A stretch of 64,000 nt of DNA, taken from an uncultured Alphaproteobacteria bacterium. GTDB taxonomy: Bacteria > Pseudomonadota > Alphaproteobacteria > Caulobacterales > Hyphomonadaceae. Where the stretch lies: the NCBI GenBank assembly GCA_903831255.1, contig CAIKWZ010000033.1, positions 62,001 through 126,000 on the forward strand. Direction: 5' to 3'. The position numbers and the translations under genes are program-made. The number at the start of each line of letters is the position of its first letter. Position 1 is the first letter of the stretch. Below the pieces are notes generated by a model. That model was not told the DNA's origin and searched no databases. It saw nothing but the letters and a program-made list of their open reading frames with translations. Below, piece by piece: positions 60,836 through 64,000 of this stretch.

Positions 60836-63025
60836 TCAGAAGCGACGAATGAAGCGAACCAGAGCGCTGTGGTCTTCTCGTCCCGGAGTTCCATCTGCAT
60901 CGAAGCGCGATAGCAGCGCGACGCCGAGCGAGCCATCCCGGGCGATCGGACGGACGTAGCTCATCTCCAGGCGCCGCTCGAGGGCGGGACCTTTCAGGCT
61001 GATCCTGCGATCAGCCATGATCGGCGCGCCGGTCACGGGATCTGCGCCGACGGCGAGAATCATTGACATGGCTCCCGATCGGCTGGTGAGCGGGGTTCCC
61101 GCAGAGATCTCCAGAGAGTCCCCGGAAACAAGCAGGTTATTGCGCGCGAGGTTGACCGAATAGCCGAGACTGCTTGTTCGGCTCACGTCCTGAACCAGGC
61201 TTCCCACCGCTCCGTTCTGGGCGTCCGAGACCATACCTGTCACGTGACCGGTCAACGACGTCGCCTGTCCAAGACGAACCCCAGCCGACAGGTTCAAGGC
61301 CGTTGTGTTCGCCCGACCGCGCAAACTGAACGCCGCCGCCTCGATGTCGCCCAGACGACTTCCTGTCTCACTGATGCGGGAGATATCAGCCGAAAGGCTC
61401 AAACGGTCCGTGCGATAGGCCAGGCCGGCTTCAAGACCTGTCGCGCGGCCGGTGACGTCATTGACCCCTGTCAGTCCGTAGACGCCTTCGCCGCTCTCCT
61501 TCAATCGACCTCCGAACCGAAGACGCAGGTTCGGTGTCAGGTCATTCGCGGCCGCCAGCGTCACGGCTTCGGGCCCAAACAGGACTGTATGTCCATGGTA
61601 TCCCGTCAGTCGCGGCGCAGGTGTGCCTGACGGCGCTGTTGCAAGATCGAGGATGGGAGAGGACGATCCGGACGAGACGGCCCATCTGCCGGTCCTGCCT
61701 GACTGGAACATCATCACGCCGAGCGGGCGCTGTGCGGCTTCTTCGCCGATGCTGTCGAACCGACGACGCAGACCCGTCTCCAGATAGCGGCCTGAGGCAG
61801 GACGCGCGTTTGTCGCGCCGCCCATGCGCTCATTGAGAGAGTTGTTCAGCGTCATGACGCCGTCACTGCGCGGGCTGTGGTTCAGGCGGCCGAAATCAAA
61901 GCCGAAGTCTCTGCCGAAACTGTCAAAGACGGCTCCGGTGAACAAACCCGCCGCCGCAGCGGCTGTTCTGGCGCCGGAGGTCACCTGGCCGCTCGTTGCC
62001 GGCGCCAGAGCGAGAGGGGCTGCGCCCGTCGCCCCGACGGCCGTTACGCCGCCCACGGGCAGGAGGGCCTTTTCCAGATTGAGAAGCCCGCGTCCATAAG
62101 TGGCGTCGACGCCTTTGTCGCCCAGATCTGTGGCGGTGCGGAAGAGAATTTCGGCTGTGTTTCTGGCGGTAAGATACGGCCACGCGCTCTTTATGACAGC
62201 TGCGGCTCCGGCCACGATTGGGCTCGCCATCGACGTTCCGCTCATGGACGCGTAGGCGGTTGGCGAGGTGTGGTACGCGCCGATCAGTCCGGTCCCCGGC
62301 GCTACGAGATAGAAGTTTCGGGCATCGCCGGCCCGATTTGAAAACGAAGCGATCTTGTTGGCTGCATCCACTGCGCCGACTGCGATGATCTGGCCGTTCG
62401 CCCAGGATTCGGACGCGTGTCGGGCCGGCCATGAAGGGTTTGCGGCTCCTTCATTGCCCGCCGCCACCACCATCAGCTGGCCAGCCTTCTGCGCCGCCTG
62501 CATGGCTGAGCGAATAGAGGTGTCGGGGCTCGGCGCGCCAAGGCTCAGATTGATTACGAACGCCTTTTGAGCGGTCGCGTAGGCGATACCCTTTGCAACC
62601 AGACTGGACGTTGTTGTCGGCCCCTGAAAGACCTGTATCGGCAGTATGCCTGCAAGCGAGGCGACCCCGACCATGCCGACGCCATTTGCTCGTCCGGCCG
62701 CGAGCGATGCGACGTGGGATCCATGGCCATTGGTGTCCACAACAGCCGATGCGCCCGTGGCGCCGGTAAATGCGTTATAGCCTCCCGTAAGCGCATCTTT
62801 GAATTCTGTATGGTCTCTACGAAGTCCCGTATCGACGACCGCGATCGTGACGCCCTTGCCCCGCTTCGCCCAGGCTCTTGAGGTGAAAGCGCCAATGCGT
62901 GAGGCGGCGGACGACCATGACAACTCTGCGCCCTTTGGCGGCTGCGTGGTGGACGTCTGCGCGATGGCTGGGGTCGAGAAGATAAGGGGTATGAGAAGCG
63001 ACAAAGCTCTTGAGTGATGCGGCAT
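60836..63025 (-). CDS. S8 serine protease autotransporter (subtilisin-like)
   Basis: 729 residues. Signal peptide (ALSLLIPLIFSTPAIA, cleavage before QTSTT). Subtilase domain with catalytic Asp65 in VAVVDTGLR (AVVDTG), His101 in NGHGSHVASL and Ser265 in GTSMASPIVAG, plus oxyanion Asn in VVAAGNEG. After residue 330 the sequence becomes low-complexity then beta-rich, ending LVRFIRRF, typical of an outer-membrane barrel with terminal Phe. It should secrete its own protease domain to the surface. No close neighbour in operon. A palindromic site lies about 95 bp upstream, and the tRNA scar lies beyond it. Confidence 0.92.
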   Translation of the reverse strand: MPHHSRALSLLIPLIFSTPAIAQTSTTQPPKGAELSWSSAASRIGAFTSRAWAKRGKGVTIAVVDTGLRRDHTEFKDALTGGYNAFTGATGASAVVDTNGHGSHVASLAAGRANGVGMVGVASLAGILPIQVFQGPTTTSSLVAKGIAYATAQKAFVINLSLGAPSPDTSIRSAMQAAQKAGQLMVVAAGNEGAANPSWPARHASESWANGQIIAVGAVDAANKIASFSNRAGDARNFYLVAPGTGLIGAYHTSPTAYASMSGTSMASPIVAGAAAVIKSAWPYLTARNTAEILFRTATDLGDKGVDATYGRGLLNLEKALLPVGGVTAVGATGAAPLALAPATSGQVTSGARTAAAAAGLFTGAVFDSFGRDFGFDFGRLNHSPRSDGVMTLNNSLNERMGGATNARPASGRYLETGLRRRFDSIGEEAAQRPLGVMMFQSGRTGRWAVSSGSSSPILDLATAPSGTPAPRLTGYHGHTVLFGPEAVTLAAANDLTPNLRLRFGGRLKESGEGVYGLTGVNDVTGRATGLEAGLAYRTDRLSLSADISRISETGSRLGDIEAAAFSLRGRANTTALNLSAGVRLGQATSLTGHVTGMVSDAQNGAVGSLVQDVSRTSSLGYSVNLARNNLLVSGDSLEISAGTPLTSRSGAMSMILAVGADPVTGAPIMADRRISLKGPALERRLEMSYVRPIARDGSLGVALLSRFDADGTPGREDHSALVRFIRRF

Positions 63026-63115
63026 GCTCTGACCCGTTTCGGCGGAACCTTAGCCCCTTCTCAACTCCGGGAGTTGCCATCGTGTTCCACAAAATGATGC
63101 GATACCGCTGATCTT

Positions 63116-63132
63116 GTTAGTCTTGGACTAAC
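63116..63132. promoter_or_regulatory. Palindrome upstream of the S8 protease gene
   Basis: GTTAGTC-TTG-GACTAAC, a perfect 7-bp inverted repeat with a 3-nt centre, about 95 bp before the protease start. The form is like operators of TetR/AcrR-type dimers. A second shorter repeat (CAACTC/GAGTTG) is at 63062-63076. Role is inferred only. Confidence 0.45.
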
Positions 63133-63171
63133 CATCCTGCTGGCGGCGCTAAGGGCAGGCAGGAGGGGAGA

Positions 63172-63226
63172 TGGTGCGGGCGGTCGGACTTGAACCGACA
63201 CGTATCTCTACGGCGGATTTTGAGTC
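63172..63226 (-). tRNA. 3' half of tRNA-Leu(CAA), probable attachment site of an integrated element
   Basis: On the minus strand the sequence runs from the anticodon loop (CTCAAAA, anticodon CAA) through the 3' anticodon-stem strand TCCGC, a leucine-type long variable arm, a perfect T-arm (GTCGG-TTCAAGT-CCGAC), the acceptor strand CGCCCGC, A73 and encoded CCA. Upstream, the 5' half expected to pair (GCGGGCG acceptor, D-arm, GCGGA anticodon stem) is absent: only two bases of the 5' anticodon stem match, and the acceptor partner is not found. The break at the anticodon stem is the usual crossover point of tRNA-targeting integrases. The intact copy should lie to the right of the window. Confidence 0.8.
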
Positions 63227-63368
63227 TTCTAGTGCCTACCAGAAGCCGTTGATATTATTGTAAGATTTTAGTGCGTCCAGATTAGTGTGGCCAAAAGTGT
63301 GTCCGCTAGGACTTCGATTCTGGCCGTTGGAGAAAGCCTAACACAGCCTCCCCCAGTGAGGGAATTGG

Positions 63369-63717
63369 GCATGAAAAGCGCGACGCTTTCATGCACGCGA
63401 ATGAAGGCCAAAGGCCGCTGCAATCGGTGGCCGCGAAGCGCGCCGTGCGCACGATCAGATGGTGCAGGTTTATGGTAATCGCACCCAGCTCCCCCATCAT
63501 CAAAACAGGGTTGCATCTGCAACCATGCCTTCCGGCGAGGATGGGGGTAGCAAGTGCAAGGAGGCTCCGAACGAGGGTCCGCGCCGAAGGCGTGGAGACG
63601 TTTGGATGCCTTGCGCGCGCGAGGGGCAAAGCCCCTTAGCCACCGTGCGCGGCGAAGCCGCGTGACGAAGCGCGAGGGATCGAAGCCGTGAGGCCGAGAC
63701 CGCCTAAGCGGGCTCGG
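63369..63717. repeat. Cluster of short hairpins and palindromes
   Basis: At least six inverted repeats in 350 bp: 63369-63394 (11-bp stem GCATGAAA-GCG with one bulged A, loop CGA); 63406-63416 (GGCC-AAA-GGCC); 63444-63453 (CGTGCGCACG); 63509-63524 (GGTTGCA-TC-TGCAACC); 63623-63635 (GGGGC-AAA-GCCCC); 63648-63662 (CGCGGC-GAA-GCCGCG); 63694-63717 (9-bp stem, one mismatch, loop CTAA). Could be a structured RNA, REP-like elements or a transfer/replication origin; not decidable here. Confidence 0.6.
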
Positions 63718-63759
63718 TTCACGAGAGCCCGATCCGAAGGACGCGCCCCCATATTGAGA

Positions 63760-63876
63760 TTACTCAAAACCTGTAAGGCCTATCGCGCGGAGGAGCGCGG
63801 CAAACTCCGGCTCTACCCTCGCGACACGATAGACAGCTTCGATGTCCATGCGAGCCCGCAGATCAATCGCTGCCAT
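63760..63876 (-). CDS. Possible small protein (38 residues) or C-terminal end of an ORF from beyond the window
   Basis: ATG at 63876 with AGGA 5 nt upstream encodes MAAIDLRARMDIEAVYRVAR and on to VEPEFAALLRAIGLTGFE, a helical, protein-like composition with regular codon use. The frame stays open upstream to the window end, so it could also be a C-terminus, although the upstream translation looks less protein-like. Not recognised. It is the only ORF in the putative island with a reasonable amino-acid pattern. Confidence 0.3.
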   Translation of the reverse strand: MAAIDLRARMDIEAVYRVARVEPEFAALLRAIGLTGFE

Positions 63877-64000
63877 TGGCTTCCTATATTGCGGCCATTC
63901 CCTTTCGAGCGCACGCCCAGCGTTCGGGCTGTCGGGTGGTCGATGCGTGTCGCGGCCTAAATGGTGTCGCAGTAAGAAGGCTTCGTGACATGGTTGCTGC

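Follow-up and report, generated by a model that had tools for sequence, protein, structure and literature searches.

Near the right-hand end of the window, the whole stretch of 64,000 nucleotides analysed here (C33:62001-126000 in the source genome G000, a draft of 76 contigs), lies the 3' part of a tRNA-Leu(CAA) gene. On the minus strand, positions 63226-63172 read GACTCAAAATCC...GCACCA and span the CAA anticodon loop, variable arm, T arm, acceptor strand and CCA, with the break at the anticodon loop. No complete tRNA was found in the 64-kb window by ARAGORN, and Rfam at its gathering cut-off returned nothing in the window or around a tRNA-Leu gene on contig C42 that is described below. A genome of the same genus (G014) carries an intact tRNA-Leu(CAA) at the corresponding place, beside an 88% identical neighbour gene, and the fragment is therefore not a chance resemblance. 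The alignment of the window with G014 shows 85% identity over about 3.2 kb and stops at 63226, within the anticodon stem-loop, while the G014 sequence past the tRNA matches C52:16381-17937 of G000 at 77%. Since synteny runs up to 63226 and resumes on C52, host DNA flanks an insertion on both sides. The broken 5' half of the host tRNA was found on the minus strand of C52:16381-16418; it ends ...GCGGACTCAAAA and is followed by unrelated, non-tRNA DNA. Only the 9 bp GACTCAAAA are common to both host tRNA halves. The features are collected in Table 1.

Table 1. Features of the split tRNA-Leu(CAA) locus. Plain coordinates refer to the window, and those with a prefix to contig C52.
Feature	Position	Strand	Remarks
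Host gene beside the attachment site, outside the element	60836..63025	minus	729 aa; subtilase/autotransporter-like by eye; 88% identical in G014
tRNA-Leu(CAA), 3' part	63172..63226	minus	Alignment with intact gene of G014
9-bp core GACTCAAAA, at both element ends	63218..63226	minus	Anticodon loop plus two stem bases; also ends the C52 5' half
Mobile element, left end	63227..64000		First 774 bp; continues to C33:129397, then C52:1-16380
RloB/AbiLii-like gene, 3' part	63760..64000	minus	First gene inside the left end; Pfam RloB E 2.8e-10; PADLOC AbiLii E 4.3e-10
Complete spare tRNA-Leu(CAA)	C52:14936-15020	same strand as 5' half	45 bp after the integrase gene
Integrase, 392 aa	C52:15066-16244	same strand as 5' half	Adjoins the broken 5' half

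Much of a preliminary description made from the window alone was borne out. The 3' half of tRNA-Leu(CAA) that it recognised is upheld by the G014 alignment and by the ARAGORN result. As to the drop in coding density that it placed at this point, ORF lists read by eye contain no convincing gene at 63026-63759, and the RloB-like ORF begins at 63760 and extends beyond the window. Its placing of the chromosome to the left and an island to the right agrees with the synteny that ends at 63226 and resumes on C52, and the integrase that it assigned to the island adjoins the C52 5' half. G014, with a whole gene and no insert, provides the empty site that it proposed to look for in related genomes. It had also taken the 3' segment to be a duplicate; instead, the host gene itself is split, its 5' half remains broken at the other element end, and a search of the draft genome (E up to 0.001) revealed no full tRNA-Leu(CAA) with an identical 3' segment.

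The element is about 20.5 kb long, comprising 4.2 kb on C33 and bases 1-16380 of C52, provided that these two contigs abut. The last nine bases of C33 are the first nine of C52, a 9-bp contig overlap, and an ORF cut at the start of C52 carries on in the end of C33 when read by eye. Defence genes are abundant in the element. The RloB/AbiLii-like gene, complete on the longer contig (L003:5760-6329, 189 aa), and an AAA ATPase gene (together L003:5760-7549) lie at the left end and resemble AbiLii/AbiLi defence proteins (PADLOC: AbiL). The element also encodes type I restriction-modification genes, and a PDC-S06 candidate is present on C52. Mobilization genes were identified by a relaxase domain (E 2.4e-15), a NikA/MobC-like domain (E 1e-19) and TraG/VirD4-like coupling protein domains. 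With an integrase, a relaxase and an accessory mobilization gene, the element looks to be of the integrative and mobilizable type. An origin as a temperate phage is unsupported, as the integrase had no match in 50,697 phage records (E up to 1e-20) and mobilization genes are present instead.

The N-terminal part of the integrase matches Phage_int_SAM_3 above the Pfam cut-off, while its match to PF00589 (Phage_integrase; E 0.0014) falls below the cut-off. Among 15 members of the integrase family, 10 match PF00589 with E values up to 0.01, the best being 8e-6. Arg235, Arg330 and Tyr362 are invariant in all 15 members, which we take to fit the catalytic pattern of tyrosine recombinases. No relative was found by sequence in the PDB; among plasmid relatives, the best carry the annotation tyrosine-type recombinase or site-specific integrase. 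We therefore regard the integrase as being of the tyrosine type; its attB lies inside a tRNA gene.

The spare tRNA-Leu(CAA) beside the integrase gene differs from the host gene, and the difference includes the core (GATTCAAAA vs GACTCAAAA). It is the sole tRNA-Leu(CAA) found in the draft genome. With the 3' half as a query against G000, only a tRNA-Leu(UAA) gene matched besides the half itself, and a pattern for the 5' parts of tRNA-Leu(UAA/CAA) found just the broken half and the spare. Among 40 Rfam tRNA matches in G000, 36 places were read without finding a Leu(CAA), and among the other four the spare alone is one. The tRNA-Leu(UAA) gene (G000:C42:15669-15990, L004) is interrupted by a group I-like intron that belongs to one family with the introns of the spares in related elements, described below; the C42 match was considered and rejected as the missing full tRNA or as a tmRNA. 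No integrase match lies within its flank of about 1.5 kb, and G014 also has an intron-bearing tRNA-Leu(UAA). The C42 gene may be an old spare.

In order to see the locus among its relatives, genome contigs were scanned for the integrase, and the best 80 of 259 confirmed loci were analysed. At 60 of these 80, the integrase match is preceded, 112-237 bp upstream, by a broken tRNA-Leu 5' half; the same test was positive in one of 6437 control windows, and a T arm follows the broken half at none of the 60 loci. The targets are 31 UAA and 29 CAA genes. A complete tRNA-Leu was present within 600 bp downstream at 46 of the 60, at 58-218 bp from the integrase match, and its anticodon is that of the broken gene in all 46 pairs (three ARAGORN calls were re-read by eye). 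Twenty-seven UAA targets are paired with intron-bearing spares, 24 of them called UAA by ARAGORN and three called otherwise and re-read as UAA. The 19 CAA targets are paired with CAA spares, of which one (L165) has an intron and the other 18 are plain. Broken halves occur in records of Pseudomonadota and Acidobacteriota (Alpha- and Gammaproteobacteria, and Acidobacteria), many of them metagenome bins, and include two Micavibrio bins that taxonomy assigns to Bdellovibrionota. On the integrase tree, UAA and CAA targets switch 10 times, with at least six changes forced by well supported branches and with contig-end cases merged into the target labels for this count. In a family search, the integrase was found in 6 of 105 genomes and in none of the 14 other genomes of the genus. 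Of five further family loci (L243-L247), of which L243-L246 were read, one (L246) has the layout; L243-L245 have one stop in the integrase match and, by eye, lie beside part of another tRNA.

The 14 broken-half loci with no complete tRNA nearby fall into two groups. Four are contig-end cases, cut off 70-283 bp beyond the integrase, and in three of them a spare can be seen to begin; the other ten are acidobacterial loci with CAA targets, where no tRNA lies within 600 bp of the integrase. Two of these ten were extended, and a complete tRNA-Leu(CAA) was found 22 and 30 kb on. A pattern search of far ends found displaced 3' halves for L112, L117, L155 (acidobacterial, extended, at 27 kb) and L163, and a longer variant for L133 (G041:C3), where the repeat common to the two att copies is about 35 bp long rather than 9 bp and extends back as far as the D arm. 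It gave no match to a displaced 3' half for G042, G045, G046, G047 and G052; as it also missed some 5' halves, missing 3' halves are no evidence of absence. In the genome of L123, another broken Leu(CAA) half is located 1.5 kb from a complete tRNA-Leu(CAA) (G050:C13:88296-89786).

No 5' half was recognised at 20 of the 80 loci. Nine of these have an intact upstream tRNA (Lys, Arg, Met or Phe), and none of the nine has a downstream tRNA; eight have a spare only, and three (L127, L140, L175) have neither. Two planctomycete loci have a spare with no recognised 5' half. The eight spare-only loci comprise two at contig ends (L135, L169), four with a bare core (L108, L119, L120, L150), one with no core seen (L107) and a tRNA-Ser case (L167). 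The bare cores lie upstream of the integrase without a tRNA half, as in an unintegrated or nested copy. At L167 a related integrase is flanked by a broken tRNA-Ser 5' half on one side and a complete tRNA-Ser(UGA) on the other, and the loop sequence is identical in both tRNAs.

Taken together, these observations make it very probable that the fragment is the attachment junction of an element that splits a host tRNA-Leu gene and supplies its own replacement with the same anticodon. The integrase would recombine the element with the anticodon-loop DNA of the tRNA-Leu gene. With only a short core in common between element and host (9 bp in this case), integration would split the gene without rebuilding it. 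The element DNA would provide a complete tRNA-Leu of equal anticodon beside the integrase gene, so that the cell would keep that tRNA. Evidence against this reading includes the span of the element over two draft contigs, the ten acidobacterial loci with no spare nearby, the intronless UAA spare of L150, the identical cores and the non-significant shuffling of spares described below, and the presence of the layout at just one of the five further family loci. On this reading the spare would be expressed and needed. A tRNA-Leu(UAA) probably reads UUG as well, and the spare may thus not be essential.

A replacement tRNA might itself be a target; CAA spares may be shielded from the integrase by an altered core, and UAA spares by a group I intron that interrupts the anticodon loop. 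The CAA spares were compared using 20 pairs, consisting of the 18 plain loci, the element described here and the second pair in G050. The 9-bp core is identical between target and spare in one of the 20 (L136). Shuffling the spares among the pairs gave a mean of 2.97 identical cores (P = 0.13), so pairing alone shows nothing on core avoidance. The common core GACTCAAAA was present in 62 of 76 cores among the genome matches listed, which were typed by eye from 5' parts of unchecked intactness, vs one of the 20 integrase-adjoining CAA spares, which are not independent of one another (P = 2e-10); across nine distinct arms the contrast gave P = 5e-5. Two distal acidobacterial spares carry the common core, and the core is also identical in the tRNA-Ser case. 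The broken host genes at L157 and L174 have the core CACTCAAAA, which is absent among the 76 listed genome matches, and they look similar to the L102 spare, as though a spare had itself been the target of a second element.

All 27 spares paired with broken UAA genes have an intron. Among the UAA spares with no recognised half, an intron is present in L120, L135 and L169 and none in L150. At the three spare loci scanned with Rfam, the group I model (RF00028) matched with 61.8, 51.0 and 47.2 bits against a cut-off of 50, the third with an E value of 2e-9. Aligned with the genome's own tRNA-Leu(UAA), 26 of the 31 spares that have introns proved to share a single intron family, and RNAalifold on the 27 aligned intron-containing tRNAs found two-sided changes in 33 of 79 predicted pairs, tRNA stems included. 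These results support assigning the UAA spare introns to group I, with predicted self-splicing. By our reading the exons join as ...CTT + AAAATCC..., and the intron therefore splits the core. The intron family was matched at E up to 0.001 in 5 of 61 related genomes, the source genome included, with none above the cut-off and with filters that lose weak matches. ARAGORN called all five matches intron-containing tRNA-Leu(UAA) genes, and the flanks examined contained no integrase match.

It is tempting to speculate, with somewhat less than even confidence, that the group I introns of tRNA-Leu(UAA) serve as armour: the copy brought by an element that destroys the host gene at the anticodon loop would be split by an intron and be closed to the element's own integrase. 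Such elements may then carry tRNA genes with introns from one phylum to another, and some intron-bearing host genes are perhaps left-over spares. It is also quite conceivable, though again falling a little short of probable, that the introns are baggage inherited from an intron-bearing donor tRNA and play no role against the integrase. Group I introns are known to move between bacterial tRNA genes, the 26 aligned spare introns form one family shared with the genome's own tRNA-Leu(UAA), which has no adjoining integrase, and the UAA spare of L150 is intronless; all of this agrees with inheritance. The proportion of intron-bearing copies (27 of 27 paired UAA spares vs 5 of 61 related genomes) argues against it, although the two figures are not like for like since the genome scan used stricter filters. 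The splitting of the core, on our reading, likewise speaks against inheritance, as does the alternation of UAA and CAA types on the tree, but swapping of whole cassettes could still yield such alternation.

Two further explanations concern the split gene itself. The spare could be incidental cargo or an aid to codon usage, with the break in the host gene tolerated since tRNA-Leu(UAA) reads UUG. The intron-containing tRNA-Leu(UAA) gene in the same genome and the ten acidobacterial loci without an adjacent spare are compatible with such a view, but we consider it improbable, given the anticodon agreement in 46 of 46 pairs, the position of the spare 58-218 bp from the integrase match and the lack of a spare at the nine loci with an intact upstream tRNA. 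A canonical tRNA island, in which the element end rebuilds the tRNA and the fragment is a displaced duplicate, is the usual case in the available text on Islander (PMC4383910) and would fit the 3' fragment, the integrase and an anticodon-loop crossover, but it is highly improbable here, as the draft genome yielded no rebuilt copy, none of the 60 broken halves is followed by a T arm, and the non-tRNA sequence after the C52 5' half refutes it unless C52 is misassembled.

If splitting and replacement is the correct reading, destruction and replacement of a host tRNA, so far reported for actinobacteriophages, is indicated for a family of non-phage elements in at least two phyla, and group I introns of bacterial tRNA-Leu genes are tied to integrases. 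The earlier suggestion that an interruption in a tRNA gene protects against integration (Randau and Soll, cited in PMC4390854) could then be put to the test in bacteria. Programs that detect islands by a restored tRNA would probably overlook elements of this kind. In literature searches that mostly covered papers outside subscription, no account came up of non-phage elements that replace a host tRNA and carry intron-bearing spares, and the portions of PMC10865867, PMC3293823, PMC4383910, PMC4390854 and PMC8371274 that were available do not describe intron-bearing spares in bacterial integrative elements.

Three known systems, taken from the available portions of the respective papers, bear comparison with the locus. 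Canonical tRNA islands (Islander, PMC4383910) share the tRNA target, the integrase and the displaced 3' fragment; they restore the target gene, whereas the element described here does not. The Caldiarchaeum tRNA-Thr locus consists of a 5' tRNA fragment, a recombinase gene and then an intron-bearing complete tRNA, and its authors proposed that an intron arriving with the element might prevent later integration events (Sugahara 2012, PMC3293823). That case involves an archaeal tRNA intron at one locus, whereas the introns here are of group I type, in bacteria and at many loci. The closest likeness is to tRNA-dependent lysogeny, known from actinobacteriophages (Guerrero-Bustamante and Hatfull 2024, PMC10865867). 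Phage Gaia, for example, uses an 8-bp core at tRNA-Leu-CAA and carries a tRNA downstream of its integrase, and the word intron occurs once in the text available from that paper, within a reference title. Common to both are a tyrosine integrase, a short core, a host tRNA that is not rebuilt and an element-borne tRNA of the same isotype. In contrast to the actinobacteriophages, the element described here has relaxase and coupling-protein genes and an integrase with no match among the phage records searched (50,697 records, E up to 1e-20), its relatives have left broken halves in Pseudomonadota and Acidobacteriota, and their UAA spares carry an intron.
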